Shown here one piece after another: positions 32,798 to 39,137 of a stretch of 64,000 nucleotides of DNA. The stretch covers positions 2,372,282-2,436,281 of the forward strand of contig NZ_CP028105.1 of assembly GCF_003019675.1 (NCBI RefSeq), given 5' to 3'. The DNA is from Fusobacterium ulcerans (lineage in GTDB: Bacteria; Fusobacteriota; Fusobacteriia; Fusobacteriales; Fusobacteriaceae). The first letter of the stretch is position 1. Each line of letters opens with the position of its first letter. A program made the position numbers and the translations under genes. The notes beneath the pieces are model-generated. The model had not been told where the DNA came from. It searched no databases and was given only the letters and a program-made list of their open reading frames with translations.

Positions 32798-33910
32798 TTA
32801 TCTTTTTGGTTTAATAAAAGCATCTCTTACAATTATTCCAGCTTCTTTAGGAAGAGTGACTTCAATTTCTAAAGGACCTCTTTTTACTGATATCCATCCC
32901 AATCCTTTAAATACCAATTCTTCTCCAGCCTGTACTTTTATTTTTTTCTTTATCATTTCCAATTTTTTATATTGATCTCTGCAATTATCACATGGAGGAT
33001 AAAGCAGATCTTTTCTACCAGAAGTCAGAAGTTCTTTTAATCTTTCTGTATTTGTTTCATGGAAAGTTACATCTTTTGCAGCATAAAGAGAGAAGATAGG
33101 CATAGTGTCATCTTCATTTAAAACTCTAAACCAAAGTAATTCTCCAATTAAAAGAGCTCTTCCTTTTTTTACTTTAAAAGTTTTTCTAGAAATTTCACCA
33201 GATGGAACCATTTTTAAGTTGCATTCCTCACATACTAAATCTGAAATACGACCTTCAGGAATAAGTCCAGGAGTATCTACTAATACAATGTTTGTATGAG
33301 GAATTTGGTTTTTTACACTTTTAAGTGTAGTACCTGGATATTTAGAAACTGTTACTTTTTTAGCTCCTAAAAGTCTATTTACAATACTTGATTTTCCAAC
33401 ATTAGTAACACCAAGAACTATAGCTTCCACTCCATCAGGATAGAAATGCTTTATTTTTTTAAATATACCATTAATTCCATAACCATTTTTACTGCTTACA
33501 ATTGCAATATCAAGAGGAGCAATTCCCTCTTCTGCCAATCTGTCTTTTACCCAATCAGATACTTCAGAAGGATGTTTGTCATCAGGGATAAGATCCAGTT
33601 TATTGATAACTACTATTGAGTCCATTTCTCTAAGAACATCAAGTATTTCATCATCAAAAGAACCTTCAAAATCTATTATATCAAATACTGCTACAGCTAA
33701 TTTAGAATACTGCATAGCTTCCTGTACTTCTTTTCTGTAATCATCTTTGTTTAATCTTACAGGCATATATTTACCATAATTTTTTATTTTAAAACATCTC
33801 TGGCAGTAATGATCACCATTTTCTTGAAGTTTTCCTTCTGGTAAATATCCACTTTTATTTGCATCCTCACTTTGTAATTCTATTCCACACCCAACACATT
33901 TTTTGCCCAT
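32798..33910 (-). CDS. yqeH: YqeH-type circularly permuted ribosome biogenesis GTPase
   Basis: 370 residues. An N-terminal zinc finger (CVGCG ... HYCQRC) precedes a circularly permuted GTPase domain: NKLDLIP (G4) comes before GVTNVGKSSIVNRLL (G1) and DTPGLIPEG (G3). In Bacillus YqeH assists 30S subunit assembly. The ATG at 33910 is chosen because it lies eight bases from AAGGAG; another ATG six bases upstream is too close. It occupies the position next to hslV where many Firmicutes have hslU. Confidence 0.92.
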   Translation of the reverse strand: MGKKCVGCGIELQSEDANKSGYLPEGKLQENGDHYCQRCFKIKNYGKYMPVRLNKDDYRKEVQEAMQYSKLAVAVFDIIDFEGSFDDEILDVLREMDSIVVINKLDLIPDDKHPSEVSDWVKDRLAEEGIAPLDIAIVSSKNGYGINGIFKKIKHFYPDGVEAIVLGVTNVGKSSIVNRLLGAKKVTVSKYPGTTLKSVKNQIPHTNIVLVDTPGLIPEGRISDLVCEECNLKMVPSGEISRKTFKVKKGRALLIGELLWFRVLNEDDTMPIFSLYAAKDVTFHETNTERLKELLTSGRKDLLYPPCDNCRDQYKKLEMIKKKIKVQAGEELVFKGLGWISVKRGPLEIEVTLPKEAGIIVRDAFIKPKR

Positions 33911-33922
33911 ACACATCTCTCC

Positions 33923-34456
33923 TTAACTTAATACATCATAAACTATATTCAAATTTGTATAAATACACATTTCACCAGCTATTTCCATAGCTTCCACTGC
34001 TATTTCTTCAGCAGACATATCCTTGTTGTTCCTTATAAGAGCTCTGGCAGCAGCATAAGCATAGTTACCACCGCTTCCAATAGCAGCTACATCTCCATCA
34101 GGTTCTATTACATCACCATTACCTGAAAGAATCAGTATCATATTTTTATCAGCTACAATAAGCATAGCATCTAAAACTCTTAGAGCTTTATCTGTTCTCC
34201 AGTCCTTTGCAAGTTCCACAGAGGCTTTTTTTAAATTTCCTCCAAACTCATCTAATTTATTTTCAAATTTATCCATTAGTGCAAAAGCATCAGCAGCAGC
34301 TCCTGCAAATCCAGCTAAAACTTCATAATCACCTATTTTACGTATTTTTTTTGCATTGCCTTTGAAAACTACCTCTCCAAAAGTGACTTGTCCATCACCT
34401 GCAACAGCAACTTTTCCATCTTTTTTTACTGCTATAATTGTAGTAGCTCTTATCAT
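33923..34456 (-). CDS. hslV: ATP-dependent protease peptidase subunit HslV (ClpQ)
   Basis: Threonine protease of the HslUV complex, 177 residues. The sequence begins [27 protein letters not shown]; the catalytic Thr is exposed after removal of the first residues, and [11 protein letters not shown] carries the catalytic Lys. [16 protein letters not shown] near the C-terminus is conserved. GAGGAG precedes the ATG. Order upstream (topA, trmFO, Xer, hslV) is the same as in Bacillus and relatives, but the ATPase gene hslU, which normally follows, is absent here. It may be elsewhere in the genome. Confidence 0.93.
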
Positions 34457-34470
34457 AATGTTTCACTCCT

Positions 34471-35355
34471 CTAACTTTGATTCATAAAGTCAAATGGTAT
34501 TTTATATAAAATTTCCTGATATATTTTGGTACTCTCTATTGTAACATGTCCCATAAGTTCTTGCAAAAAATTAAGGCTCATTCCTTTAGTTAATAAATGA
34601 ACCGCAAAAGTATGCCTAAAACTATAGGGGCTGATTTCTCTTGTAATTCCAGCTCTGGCAGCATATCTATCAACTATTCTTCTTAATGATCTGTCACTCA
34701 ATCTGCTGCCAGAACCATTGACAAAAAGAATACTTGAGTTATATTTATCTCCATATTTTTCTTTTTTTGCTTCTACATATCTTTTGAAATATTCTCTAGT
34801 TCTTTGACTGAAAAATACATATCTATTAGCTTTGCCATTAGAGACTAAAAGAGTTCTGCTGTCAAGATCAAAAACCTGTTCACCAATACTGAGCATTTCA
34901 GTAGAAGTTATACCACTTGAATAAAGCAATTCAAGTATTAATCTATCTCTTAACCCATTTGCATTATCTGTATTTATTACATCTCTAAGCTTATTTATTT
35001 CTTCTAAAGTAAGGATATCTGGTTTTTCTGCTTCAAAAGAAGGAGAATTAATTATTTCAATAGGATTATTCTTAATGAGATTATTTTTCATTAAATATTT
35101 AAAAAATGATCTTAAGGATGAAAGTTTTCTATTGATTGATCTTTTTCCTACTTCGTTTTTTTGAAGAGCTATGATAAATCCCCTGAGCATAACAGGAGTT
35201 ATTTTTGAAGCTTCTTCAATTTTTTCTATATTTTTTAGATATTCACTAAGTTGAGAAAGATCTTTTTTTAGAGATTTAATAGTATTAAGACTTTTATTTT
35301 CTCCAAATTCAGCATAATATAAAAAATCTTTTATATTTTTATCTAAGTTTTCCAT
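34471..35355 (-). CDS. XerC/CodV-position tyrosine recombinase-like protein with altered active site
   Basis: 294 residues with an N-terminal SAM-like core-binding domain and a C-terminal tyrosine recombinase domain. Aligning conserved blocks by eye: the first catalytic Arg, normally in the G-L-R-V-S-E-L motif, is missing (SSGITSTEMLSIG); Lys is present (NGKANRYV); the HxLRH block reads PYSFRHTFA, with Tyr in place of the first His; GH and the nucleophile Tyr (TKIYQEI) are kept. Strand exchange may therefore be impaired or altered. The ATG at 35355 lies after GGGAGG; an ATG at 35379 has no spaced site. Its place between trmFO and hslV matches codV/xerC of Bacillus. Confidence 0.8.
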   Translation of the reverse strand: MENLDKNIKDFLYYAEFGENKSLNTIKSLKKDLSQLSEYLKNIEKIEEASKITPVMLRGFIIALQKNEVGKRSINRKLSSLRSFFKYLMKNNLIKNNPIEIINSPSFEAEKPDILTLEEINKLRDVINTDNANGLRDRLILELLYSSGITSTEMLSIGEQVFDLDSRTLLVSNGKANRYVFFSQRTREYFKRYVEAKKEKYGDKYNSSILFVNGSGSRLSDRSLRRIVDRYAARAGITREISPYSFRHTFAVHLLTKGMSLNFLQELMGHVTIESTKIYQEILYKIPFDFMNQS

Positions 35356-35413
35356 CTTTCCTCCCAGTATATCTGACATCCTCTTATATTATAGCCTATA
35401 TTAAGAAATATTT

Positions 35414-36727
35414 CTATGCTAGTTCTTTTATTTTACTTTCCAAATGATCTAAAGCTATTTTAGAAATAGCATTGTATCTTTCTTTTTTATCTCTTATTCT
35501 TATTCCATCAAGAGATCTTATAATTCCAAAGTTAGGTCCCATAGGCTGAAAATTCTTTTTTTCTTCAGTGACATATTTTATCATTGCACCAATGGCACTT
35601 CTGTCATCTAATATAAAAGGAGCTTTTCCTAATAATTTATGAGCAATATTGATAGCAGCCATAGCACCAGTAGATATAGAAGAAACATAACCTTCGCTTC
35701 CTGTTATTTGACCAGCAAAATAGATATTATCTTTTGTTTTTAATTTTAATGTTTCATCTAACAATCTTGATGAATCTATAAATGTATTTCTGTGCATAAC
35801 TCCATATCTTATGAAATCGGCATTTTCAAGTCCAGGAATCATAGAGAAAACTCTTTTTTGTTCTCCCCATTTAAGATTTGTCTGAAATCCTACAATATTA
35901 TATAATTTTCCTTCTTTATCATCTTGTCTAAGCTGAACAACAGCATAGTCCATTTTATCAGTTTTAGGGTTGATAAGCCCTTTAGGTTTTAATGGACCAA
36001 ATACAAGAGTTCTTTCACCTGTCATTGCTATTCTTTCTACAGGCATACATGCTTCAAAAAGTTTTTCTTCTTCAAAAGTTTTTAGAGGAGCTCTCTCTGC
36101 TGTTATTAAAGCATTATAAAAAGCATAGTATTCCTCTTTATTCATAGGACAGTTGATATATTCCCCTTCTCCTTTTCCATAACGAGACTGACGATAAGCT
36201 TTTTCCATGTCGATAGATTCTAAAGTAACAATGGGAGCAGCAGCATCATAAAAATAAAGATGATCACTATGAGTAAGTTCAGCTATTTTTTTAGATAATA
36301 TTTCAGAAGTAAGAGGTCCAGAAGCAATAAGAACTATTTGATCTTCCGGTATTTCAGTAAATTCTTCTTCGATTATCTCTACATTTTCCATATTTCTCAA
36401 ATATTCAGTTATCTCTATTGAAAATCCATCTCTGTCTACAGCTAATGCTTGCCCAGCAGGAACTCTATTTTTGTCAGCTATTTTTATAAGAAGAGAGTCA
36501 AGTTTTCTCAATTCTTCTTTCATAAGTCCAGAAGCATTAGCAAGATTATCCCCACCTAAAGAATTGCTGCAAACAAGTTCAGCGAAATATTTATTTTTAT
36601 GTGCTTCTGTCATTTTTTTAGATTTCATTTCATAAAGTTTTACTTTTATTCCTCTTTTAGCCAGTTGATACGCAGCTTCACAGCCAGCTAATCCAGCTCC
36701 AACTATGATAACTTCTTTATTATTCAT
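35414..36727 (-). CDS. trmFO: FADH2/folate-dependent tRNA uridine-54 C5-methyltransferase
   Basis: Makes ribothymidine at position 54 of tRNA using methylenetetrahydrofolate. 437 residues, the family length. VIIVGAGLAGCEAAYQLAKRG is the FAD-binding loop; FAELVCSNSLGG contains a conserved Cys; GPLTSEIL, FYDAAAPIV, CMPVERIA and FAGQITGSEGYVSS are all characteristic of TrmFO (Gid). The ATG at 36727 has GAGGAG five bases before it; the frame extends upstream but without a ribosome site. Confidence 0.95.
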   Translation of the reverse strand: MNNKEVIIVGAGLAGCEAAYQLAKRGIKVKLYEMKSKKMTEAHKNKYFAELVCSNSLGGDNLANASGLMKEELRKLDSLLIKIADKNRVPAGQALAVDRDGFSIEITEYLRNMENVEIIEEEFTEIPEDQIVLIASGPLTSEILSKKIAELTHSDHLYFYDAAAPIVTLESIDMEKAYRQSRYGKGEGEYINCPMNKEEYYAFYNALITAERAPLKTFEEEKLFEACMPVERIAMTGERTLVFGPLKPKGLINPKTDKMDYAVVQLRQDDKEGKLYNIVGFQTNLKWGEQKRVFSMIPGLENADFIRYGVMHRNTFIDSSRLLDETLKLKTKDNIYFAGQITGSEGYVSSISTGAMAAINIAHKLLGKAPFILDDRSAIGAMIKYVTEEKKNFQPMGPNFGIIRSLDGIRIRDKKERYNAISKIALDHLESKIKELA

Positions 36728-36761
36728 TGTTTCTCCTCTAAAATTTATTTCCAAACTCAAA

Positions 36762-36785
36762 GAGCTCACCCCTAAGGGTGAGTTC
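36762..36785 (-). terminator. Hairpin between topA and trmFO
   Basis: GAGCTCACCC (36762-36771) and GGGTGAGTTC (36776-36785) form a 10-position stem with one mismatch and a 4-base loop. Only a three-T run follows on the minus strand, so it may attenuate or process rather than stop transcription. Confidence 0.5.
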
Positions 36786-36787
36786 TT

Positions 36788-39043
36788 CTATTTTTTATTT
36801 TCTATTTTTTTTATATTTTTACATTCAGGGTATCCAGTACAAGCAAGGAATTTACCCCATCTACCTCTATTTATTTTAAATGGTCTTCCACATTTTTCAC
36901 ATTTACCAGCAGCTTTTAGTATCTTTTCTTCCTCATCAGTGATTTTCTTTAGTTCAGCTTTAAGCTGTACAATTCCATCTTTTTCCACTATCTGATTGTT
37001 AGCCAGCATTTTTCTGATTTCAGTAGGAAGAGGAGTTCTTATGTTGTCTTCAGCAAACTTTTCACTTTCAAGATAACTTCCGAATCTACCAAATTTTAAA
37101 AGATACATAGCACCACTGTCTGTGTATACATCAGTAGGTCTTCCTTTTTTAGCTTTTACTATTTCTTCTACTTTTTCCTTAACAAATATTTTACCATTTT
37201 TTATATCTTCAGCAGGTATTTCTACCCCTTTAAGAGATATTTTTTCTTTGCAGTCTTCAGATTCGTTAGGACATGCAAGATATCTTCCAAATCTTCCTGT
37301 TTTAAGGATCATATTACCTTTTCCACATGGACAAGGAACATCAGATTCGATTATTCTTGCCATTTCTTCTTCAACTGTAATTTTAAATTTATCTATATAA
37401 TGTTTAAGCTCTTTGTAGAATACTGAAAGAAGATTTACCCAATCTTTTTCCCCTTCAGCAACTTCATCAAGCTGATTTTCAAGTTCAGCAGTAAATTTAA
37501 CATTCATTATATTAGGGAAGTTTTCATCTAATTTATCTTTTATTTCATACCCTAATGCAGTAGGACTAAAACTTTTTCCTTCAACTACTACATATTCTCT
37601 TTTCTTTAAAGTTTCAATGATAGCAGCATATGTAGAAGGTCTTCCGATCCCTTCAGCTTCCAGTTTTTTAACCAGAGAAGATTCGGTAAATCTTGAAGGT
37701 GGTTTAGTGAAGTCTTCTTTAATAAGAAGTTTTTCTAATTTAAGAATATCTCCTTCTTTTATAGTAGGGAATTCTCCAAGAGGAAGATCTTCCTCTTCTT
37801 TAAATATTTTATAGTATCCATCAAATATTATTTTATTGATAGTTCCTCTAAAATCAAATTTTTCATAATTACAGATTATTTCAAACTGCTCATATTTCAT
37901 AGGAGCAAGCTGAGATATAAGGAATCTGTCCCAAATAAGCTTATATAGTTTATGTTGGTCTTTATCTAAAGTTCCTTTTAAACTATCTGGAGTAAGAGAA
38001 ATATCAGTAGGTCTGATAGCCTCATGGGCATCTTGTATTTTTTGCTTACTTTTAACAGCTTTTTGTACTCCAAGGTATTCTTTTCCAAAATTTTCAAGTA
38101 TATAATTCTTTGCCATCTCTACAGCATCTTCAGATATTCTTGTAGAGTCAGTTCTCATATATGTTATAAGTCCTTTATGATTTCCATCTATATCTATACC
38201 TTCATACAAACCTTGAGCTACTCTCATAGTTTTAGAAGCTGAAAAACCAAGATAAGATGAAGATAATTGTTGAAGAGTACTTGTTTTTAAAGGCAGAGGA
38301 GAATTTTTACTTTTCTTAGAAACTTTAGCTTCAATTACAGTAAAATCTTTTTTCTCTACTTTTTTGATTTCTTTAACAACATTTTCATCAGTAAGTTTTT
38401 CGAATTTCTTATTGTCCACTCTGTATAAAGAAAGTTTTAATTTATTTAAAAACTCCCCTTTTACTTCCCAGAATTTAACTGGAATGAATTTTTTTATTTC
38501 ATCTTCTAAATCACAGATAAGTTTTAAAGCAACTGATTGAACTCTTCCAGCTGAAGTATTTGAAGAGATACTTTTCCATAGTAGTGAACTTATACCATAT
38601 CCCACTAATCTATCAAGTATTCTTCTGGCCTGTTGAGCATTTACTTTATCCATATCAATTTTTCTGGCATGAGATATAGAGTCTTTAATAGCTGTTTCAG
38701 TTATTTCATTAAATTCTATTCTGTTGCTGTCTTTTTCATCAAGTTTTAAAGCATGGGCTATATGCCAGGCAATAGCTTCCCCTTCTCTATCCGGGTCGGA
38801 AGCCAGATAGACTTTATCAGATTTTTTAGCAAGATCCTTTAAGTTTTTGATTACATCTCCCTTTCCCTTTATAGTAGAATAAGAAGGTTGAAAATTATTT
38901 TCTACATCTACACCAAGTTTACTTTTAGGAAGATCTCTCACATGACCAAAGGAAGCAACTACATGGAATTTTTTTCCTAAGATTTTTTCTATTGTTTTAG
39001 CCTTAGCTGGGGATTCAACTATAACTAAATTCTTTTTAACCAA
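36788..39043 (-). CDS. topA: DNA topoisomerase I
   Basis: Type IA topoisomerase that relaxes negative supercoils. About 751 residues. TOPRIM domain at the start (LVIVESPAKAKTIEKIL, then ASDPDREGEAIAWH with the acidic metal residues), the catalytic Tyr in GLITYMRTDSTRIS (about residue 300), and two C-terminal zinc-ribbon-type units (CPCGKGNMILKTGRFGRYLACP and CEKCGRPFKINRGRWGKFLAC). The likely start is TTG at 39043, which lies after AGGGGTGAAGAA; a GTG at 39052 is inside that site. It follows dprA on the same strand, a widespread pairing. Confidence 0.95.
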   Translation of the reverse strand: MVKKNLVIVESPAKAKTIEKILGKKFHVVASFGHVRDLPKSKLGVDVENNFQPSYSTIKGKGDVIKNLKDLAKKSDKVYLASDPDREGEAIAWHIAHALKLDEKDSNRIEFNEITETAIKDSISHARKIDMDKVNAQQARRILDRLVGYGISSLLWKSISSNTSAGRVQSVALKLICDLEDEIKKFIPVKFWEVKGEFLNKLKLSLYRVDNKKFEKLTDENVVKEIKKVEKKDFTVIEAKVSKKSKNSPLPLKTSTLQQLSSSYLGFSASKTMRVAQGLYEGIDIDGNHKGLITYMRTDSTRISEDAVEMAKNYILENFGKEYLGVQKAVKSKQKIQDAHEAIRPTDISLTPDSLKGTLDKDQHKLYKLIWDRFLISQLAPMKYEQFEIICNYEKFDFRGTINKIIFDGYYKIFKEEEDLPLGEFPTIKEGDILKLEKLLIKEDFTKPPSRFTESSLVKKLEAEGIGRPSTYAAIIETLKKREYVVVEGKSFSPTALGYEIKDKLDENFPNIMNVKFTAELENQLDEVAEGEKDWVNLLSVFYKELKHYIDKFKITVEEEMARIIESDVPCPCGKGNMILKTGRFGRYLACPNESEDCKEKISLKGVEIPAEDIKNGKIFVKEKVEEIVKAKKGRPTDVYTDSGAMYLLKFGRFGSYLESEKFAEDNIRTPLPTEIRKMLANNQIVEKDGIVQLKAELKKITDEEEKILKAAGKCEKCGRPFKINRGRWGKFLACTGYPECKNIKKIENKK

Positions 39044-39137
39044 ATTCTTCACCCCTATCTAAATTCAAATTTTTGTTTACTATATTTCCGTTTCATTTTA
39101 CTAAAAAATAATAAAAAAAGCAACAAACAATTATATT

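Follow-up and report, generated by a model that had tools for sequence, protein, structure and literature searches.

Chromosome dimers are normally resolved by the XerC/XerD pair, which the DNA pump FtsK drives. The 64,000-nt stretch of DNA analysed here (the window; C1:2372282-2436281 of a 3.54-Mb single-contig genome, G000, rated 100% complete) carries at the xerC locus a tyrosine recombinase in which catalytic residues are replaced, raising the question of what such a protein does and which enzyme resolves chromosome dimers in this organism. The genome belongs to a family (f1) that is probably the Fusobacteriaceae, in a phylum that is probably the Fusobacteriota.

The xerC ortholog of the window

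The gene and its neighbours in the window are as follows:

34471-35355, minus strand: xerC ortholog without Arg-I and the first His of HxxRH, 294 aa (302 aa from an upstream ATG at 35379)
33923-34456, minus strand: hslV, downstream neighbour of xerC (NCBIfam PRK05456, 265.3 bits)
35414-36769, minus strand: trmFO, upstream neighbour of xerC (NCBIfam PRK05335, 657.5 bits)
36788-39052, minus strand: topA, further upstream (TIGR01051, 760.3 bits)

Upstream of xerC come trmFO and topA; on the downstream side (window positions 32798-34456), hslV is followed by yqeH, and hslU is not directly beside hslV. Either trmFO or hslV adjoins xerC in 37/37 family loci versus 1/23 others, the available flanks of the others being often short. 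The open reading frame at its full extent covers 34471-35379 (302 aa). The start at 35355 used in the preliminary description of this locus is the better one, because GGGAGG directly precedes that ATG; residue numbers nevertheless follow the 302-aa version. The positions relevant to catalysis are:

34906-34908, minus strand: codon of T158 (ACT), at the place of the catalytic Arg-I in the alignment
34831-34833, minus strand: codon of K183, probable catalytic Lys, of uncertain equivalence (shorter hairpin)
34624-34626, minus strand: codon of Y252, at the place of the first His of HxxRH in the alignment
34612-34617, minus strand: codons of R255 and H256 (Arg-II and the next His), kept
34546-34551, minus strand: codons of G277 and H278 (GH motif), kept
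34519-34521, minus strand: codon of Y287, nucleophile Tyr, kept

The window protein is a tyrosine recombinase by its domain matches (PF00589, 111.7 bits; SAM-like domain, 52.7 bits) and groups in a tree with XerC proteins from elsewhere in the phylum (SH-aLRT support 99). It falls below the NCBIfam cut-offs for both XerC (220.1 versus 335.15 bits) and XerD (220.4 versus 329.6 bits), and with T158 and Y252 it is without the complete R-K-H-R-H-Y catalytic set. The alignment bears out the two substitutions reported in the preliminary description, namely the missing Arg-I and the Tyr in place of the first HxxRH His. The same description had listed Lys, the second Arg, GH and the nucleophile as kept; this stands for R255, H256, G277-H278 and Y287, while Lys183 is present but of uncertain identity with the catalytic Lys, because its hairpin is one residue shorter in the alignment than that of canonical relatives. 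A catalytic Arg supplied from elsewhere in the fold was looked for in an alignment of 43 of the 60 XerC sequences, Arg-bearing and Arg-less ones both included, and was rejected, as no substitute stands out among the invariant positions R84, R144, R233 and R255.

The predicted structure of the window XerC (pLDDT 87.7) has its best structural match in XerA (Z 22.9, rmsd 11.3 over 265 residues) and also matches XerH (Z 20.5, rmsd 7.3 over 272 residues) and XerD (Z 16.6, rmsd 13.8 over 241 residues). As judged from this model, the predicted fold is intact. PDB 9i5v chain 14 (401 residues, named RaiA) also matches XerC, along residues 6-284; it looks like a fusion of a XerC-like domain with a ribosome factor.

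Losses of catalytic residues in XerC and XerD

We collected XerC orthologs from 60 of the 61 genomes of the order (all but G057); for G006, where two contigs share the gene, the alignment includes only a 162-aa piece. Among the 37 family sequences, the Arg-I position holds Thr in 24, Lys in 3 and Arg in 10, so that Arg-I is lost in 27/37, and it is kept in all 23 XerC outside the family. All 12 genomes of the window genus, the window genome included, share the Thr, and the loss is therefore not a sequencing quirk. The first His of HxxRH is His in 12, Tyr in 23, Phe in one and Ile in one of the 37. In addition, the C-terminal tail motif is found in 0/37 family XerC versus 20/23 outside. Mapped on the XerF tree (36 genomes; XerF is described below), the Arg-I loss corresponds to two changes. 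G014 and G027 have lost the Arg and kept the His, hinting that the Arg may have been lost first.

The nucleophile Tyr, Arg-II and its following His are kept in 37/37 family XerC, and the GH His in 32/37. Furthermore, neither Arg-I nor the HxxRH His is lost in 10/37, and in those genomes XerC could still be active. These residues would fit a XerC that is still catalytic, either because XerF or another protein complements it or because Thr158 and Tyr252 leave it slow and half-active, cleaving one strand pair in a mixed XerC-XerF complex. We regard this as improbable, in view of the family-wide absence of the tail motif and of the Cre R173A and Flp R191A variants, which, according to PMC4381057, bind and synapse their sites and did not progress to strand exchange. 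By the same token, a XerC without Arg-I could still hold DNA.

The second member of the canonical pair is also altered in the window genome:

C1:1106363-1107145: XerD ortholog, 261 aa

This protein reads GLK instead of GLR and SMIKR instead of HxxRH, and is without the GH...Tyr segment that would carry the nucleophile. XerD was collected from 55 of the 61 genomes (37 in the family, 18 outside). Arg-I is missing from all 37 family sequences (Lys in 18, Leu in 9, Gln in 6, Ser in 2, Asn in 2) and present in 14 of the 18 outside, the remaining four being three truncated sequences and one with Met. The Tyr of the nucleophile segment is still found in some family XerD; in others, including those of the window genus, the segment is gone. 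In the f4 genomes G039, G050 and G053 (L126, L127, L128; f4 is presumably the Leptotrichiaceae), the XerD match is a 148-164 aa piece and XerC keeps its catalytic residues, possibly an independent XerD loss outside the family. The streptococcal XerD-like protein is a degenerate XerD relative in single-recombinase bacteria. Unlike that protein, P0002 scores 36.6 bits against NF002685 (cut-off 178), which we take to be the model of the streptococcal protein.

At the extreme C-terminus of XerD, Y253, I258, G259 and D260 are invariant in 34 sequences (34 of the 37 family XerD were aligned), and the motif Y..I.IGD is present in 36/37. In complexes of Xer or Cre, a protomer docks its C-terminal tail on the adjacent one. 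Judged from the alignments, XerD has kept the donor tail with a shrunken acceptor region, and XerC has kept the domain and lost the tail motif. Such a pattern fits a one-way contact, from XerD to XerC, on which selection still acts; the XerD tail could dock on the catalytic-domain fold of XerC, and the reciprocal contact would be gone.

dN/dS by the Nei-Gojobori method, in which several dS values exceed 1, is 0.044-0.112 for dead XerC (7 pairs), 0.042-0.117 for Arg-bearing XerC of the family (3 pairs), 0.027-0.101 for XerC outside the family (3 pairs), 0.050-0.248 for family XerD (10 pairs) and 0.026-0.088 for XerF (10 pairs). The low values make it unlikely that XerC and XerD are free-drifting pseudogenes. 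The lost catalytic residues, tails and segments could also mean that the two genes are decaying, functionless leftovers, kept only by operon position or for want of time. With dN/dS well below 1, both genes present in 37/37 family genomes examined and an invariant XerD tail, we consider this very unlikely. Purifying selection instead suggests that XerC and XerD probably persist as a non-catalytic DNA-binding pair.

What such a pair does is open to more than one reading. MrpR/YopR/SroF, which have the same fold, are among the structural matches of the XerC model (Z 14.4-16.3), and MrpR (YopR) of phage SPbeta likewise has a tyrosine-recombinase fold without recombination: according to PMC10516654, it is a DNA-binding repressor that no longer works as a recombinase. 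By this analogy, and with both genes under purifying selection, XerC and XerD might act as transcription factors or as nucleoid proteins, in roles that have nothing to do with dif, a serious though on balance unlikely alternative. MrpR is a phage repressor, whereas the window XerC is the chromosomal ortholog of a housekeeping recombinase, and the resemblance here is one of fold alone. Both the selection acting on XerC and its intact fold in the model fit the structural or regulatory role proposed for it in the preliminary description; the role itself we infer.

FtsK, XerF and a dif-like site

The pump that drives XerCD could hardly be found in the family. At E<=1e-30, the FtsK motor model has a match in 1/61 family genomes (G021) versus 37/37 others of the phylum. 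At E<=0.001, more family genomes have short matches, all below 37 bits. The FtsK gamma domain is matched in 1/37 family genomes (G020, at 31 bits, in a genome with 6% contamination) versus 24/24 outside, and an FtsK protein used as query at E<=1e-8 finds 1/37 family genomes (G021) versus 24/24. The single strong motor match lies in a 1639-aa frame (L242, G021:C10); the 742-aa part of it that was scanned has an FtsK/SpoIIIE motor and no gamma domain. The window genome has no gamma match and no FtsK match, the motor searches having scored its best-ranked 26 of 43 candidates at E<=1e-30 and 39 of 43 at E<=0.001. The absence rests on best-ranked candidates because the searches score a capped part of the first-look candidates, and a very divergent FtsK could have escaped them.

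The preliminary description had supposed that dimer resolution may rely on another recombinase and had proposed a genome search for another complete Xer. Such a search in the window genome finds a third protein, which we call XerF as a working name, with a dif-like site 3′ of its gene:

C1:3018774-3019772: XerF, tyrosine recombinase, 333 aa
C1:3019979-3020006: dif-like site, 28 bp, ACCACATATAA-TTAACA-TTATATGTGGT

XerF of the window genome has the full R-K-H-R-H-Y set. Among 36 XerF orthologs, the R, K, HxxRH and GH His are present in 36/36 and the Tyr in 35/36, the 36th lying beyond a contig end. At E<=1e-40, XerF is matched in 55/61 family genomes versus 0/37 others; the six family genomes without a match are 71, 93, 82, 92, 62 and 81% complete. 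XerF of G017 and G029 is only 41-42% identical, and weaker matches outside the family, at 24-34% identity, are mostly the genomes' own XerC and XerD. The idea that XerF is a duplicate of fusobacterial XerC or XerD was rejected, as it forms a separate branch 1.89 changes long (tree of 25 of the 61 genomes, some long branches flagged). The window genome also encodes two short tyrosine recombinases (L005 and L006; 234 and 198 aa), alike by eye, that may be DNA invertases.

XerF is under every curated NCBIfam cut-off among the matches listed, the best being XerA_Arch at 119.5 of 220 bits. It scores 82.6 bits against the XerS model (cut-off 267) and 29.3 bits against a XerH chain, and no XerH model is among the NCBIfam matches listed. 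Its two best solved chains are archaeal Xer/XerA. A scan of genome contigs for relatives returned nine fusobacterial loci and one Bacteroidetes locus at 23%, the organisms including Fusobacterium mortiferum, Cetobacterium, Psychrilyobacter and Ilyobacter; because the scan relies on exact peptide patterns, it may overlook more distant ones. Relatives also occur in 21 phage records, the 15 listed being 26-31% identical.

The dif-like site has an 11-6-11 layout, in which two perfectly symmetric 11-bp arms surround 6 bp. A weight matrix trained on 18 sites places such a site 67-556 bp 3′ of XerF in 23/36 loci, the window genome included. The arms are symmetric at 11/11 positions in 12 of these 23, as expected for one recombinase, which likewise argues against a catalytic XerC. 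Scores are at least 21.2 at 22/23 sites (G034 is weak at 10.5), with shuffled maxima of 4.4 to 17.4 over the 36 loci. Because 18 of the sites are training sites, the matrix is independent evidence only for G019, G022, G031, G032 and the weak G034; shuffled maxima at the first four stay at or below 9.5 (10 resamples per locus), whereas their sites score 24.7 to 27.4, and G034 scores 10.5 against 7.4. A core match on contig C19 of G034 was replaced by the match 67 bp from XerF.

The exact 18-bp core occurs once per genome in 16 family genomes, in 15 of them within 600 bp of XerF and in G021 about 4.3 kb away. With up to one mismatch, the core is found in 22/37 family genomes, with three more matches in family genomes that already have a site at XerF; outside the family there are eight matches in 7/24 genomes (exact in two genomes), and a reversed-pattern control gives three matches in 61 genomes. 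Some one-mismatch cores outside the family have flanks that are near-identical between species by eye and look like coding DNA. Six viral contigs also carry the 18-mer core. Use of the core by mobile elements was rejected, because the viral arms match at only 6 to 9 of 11 positions and no match to the Xer set is encoded in the stretches around the viral 18-mers (parts only for the three longer contigs). In nine f4 genomes a 21-mer, ATAAT(C/G/A)AG(G/A)ATTATGTAAAAT, recurs (for example at G042:C1:1732344 and G043:C1:701189); it may be the canonical XerCD dif of f4, and a control pattern also matches many genomes.

The weight-matrix scan gives no site within 600 bp of XerF in 13/36 loci. In six of these (G017, G020, G023, G026, G029 and G033), a contig ends near the xerF 3′ end, and G026 has a one-mismatch core near the end of another contig. 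Cores lie farther off in G021 (about 4.3 kb from XerF, as above) and in G016 (about 22 kb, with one mismatch). G011 has a dif-like candidate with a 7-bp spacer, and G015, G024 and G035 have weak candidates; the XerF locus of G028 has no dif-like candidate. Six draft assemblies (loci L087, L099, L102, L103, L104 and L105) stop no more than about 270 bases from the xerF 3′ end (one within the gene), and a repeat, an inversion or insertion heterogeneity may be the cause of breaks near the expected dif.

The sites are flanked by AT-rich repeats. The right repeat, AATTATTTnAAATAATT, a pattern derived by eye from the same flanks, lies at +25 to +27 in 16/24 sites, allowing up to 3 mismatches over 16 positions, and is missing at that spacing in 8/24; in G013, G016, G018 and G032, 7-26% of shuffles equal it.

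The site also lies near the predicted replication terminus. In the window genome, the GC skew turns positive near 1.358 Mb and negative between 3.01 and 3.07 Mb; at the dif-like site (3.020 Mb), it is +0.05 in the 8 kb to the left and -0.199 in the 6 kb to the right. The pattern is not perfectly clean: the skew is +0.025 in a 20-kb sample just past the site and close to zero in those at 0.257 and 3.107 Mb. Ten other genomes were selected for their long contigs; in 10/10 the skew is higher over the 20 kb to the left of the site than over the 20 kb to its right (in G032 by only 0.015), with a plus-to-minus sign change at the site in six and no sign change in four. A comparison of dif orientation with the replichores was dropped, being meaningless with arbitrary contig strands.

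That XerF falls below the curated Xer cut-offs, has phage relatives and lies beside an AT-rich palindrome that could form a hairpin would also suit a domesticated mobile-element integrase, the palindrome being its old attachment site or a terminator. We think this quite unlikely, given the family-wide retention of XerF, the dif-like 11-6-11 layout with its single-copy core, the position of the site at the skew switch, and the missing FtsK and catalytic XerD. The genome evidence, comprising an intact family-wide XerF, an adjacent dif-like site near the terminus and the loss of both XerD catalysis and FtsK, points to XerF as the other recombinase that the preliminary description had anticipated.

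Probable replacement of FtsK-XerCD by XerF/dif

Taken as a whole, the observations are best explained, and in our judgement probably correctly, by replacement of FtsK-XerCD with an FtsK-less XerF/dif system, in which XerC and XerD persist as a non-catalytic DNA-binding pair. The replacement itself is well supported by co-distribution and anatomy, as read from the genomes. In the family ancestor, a single tyrosine recombinase, XerF, would have taken over from the FtsK-XerCD machine. XerF alone would bind both 11-bp arms of the symmetric 28-bp dif near the terminus and resolve dimers without FtsK, as archaeal XerA is described as doing (PMC5357621). XerD would have lost Arg-I in every family member examined, and XerC its tail motif first, then mostly Arg-I, and then, in most of those, the HxxRH His; the window XerC would thereby have given up strand-exchange chemistry. 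The XerC-XerD pair would have been kept for binding DNA, most likely as an architectural or regulatory complex, possibly at the repeats that flank the XerF dif. A more specific version, in which the dead pair sits on these AT-rich repeats and licenses or aligns XerF recombination in FtsK's stead, is tentative, and we consider it rather doubtful.

Several known systems resemble XerF/dif in part. XerH/difH of Campylobacter and Helicobacter and XerS/difSL of streptococci likewise use a single recombinase with a site usually adjoining its gene, and the XerS site is at the terminus, near which the XerF dif also lies (for XerH and XerS, PMC2731167 and PMC5357621). XerS and XerH are, however, described as FtsK-dependent (PMC3025954 and PMC5357621), whereas FtsK is missing in the family that has XerF. 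Archaeal XerA/dif is FtsK-independent and has an 11-6-11 site (PMC5357621), the same layout as for XerF; XerF differs in being bacterial, in scoring 119.5 bits against a cut-off of 220, and in the retention of dead XerCD. In XerL/dif of the Legionellales, a single recombinase is likewise used and the dif arms are long uninterrupted inverted repeats, but in L. pneumophila xerL is more than 400 kb from dif and an FtsK homolog is present, which XerL may or may not need (PMC9765430). XerF, by contrast, lies less than 1 kb from its site in 23/36 loci, the family is without FtsK, and a dead XerC/XerD pair is retained along with XerF, unlike in XerL/dif.

Among the open-access papers listed for Fusobacterium with Xer or FtsK, we found no description of a Fusobacterium Xer/dif system or of a missing FtsK. 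The stem 'fusobacter' is absent from the main text of a dif survey (PMC3025954), a review (PMC5357621) and a further survey (PMC2731167), and PMC8138268 and PMC13342612 each have a single mention of the phylum, on another subject. Both FtsK and a catalytic XerD seem to have been lost from the family that includes Fusobacterium, and we found no account among those papers of its apparent use of one recombinase with a dif of its own. One important machine has seemingly been swapped for another, with the old parts kept for other use, which raises the question of how dimers are resolved at the right time and place without the DNA translocase FtsK. The replacement would explain the misleading annotation at the usual xerC and xerD loci, and the family would present a series of intermediates from a two-enzyme machine to a pair of pseudoenzymes.
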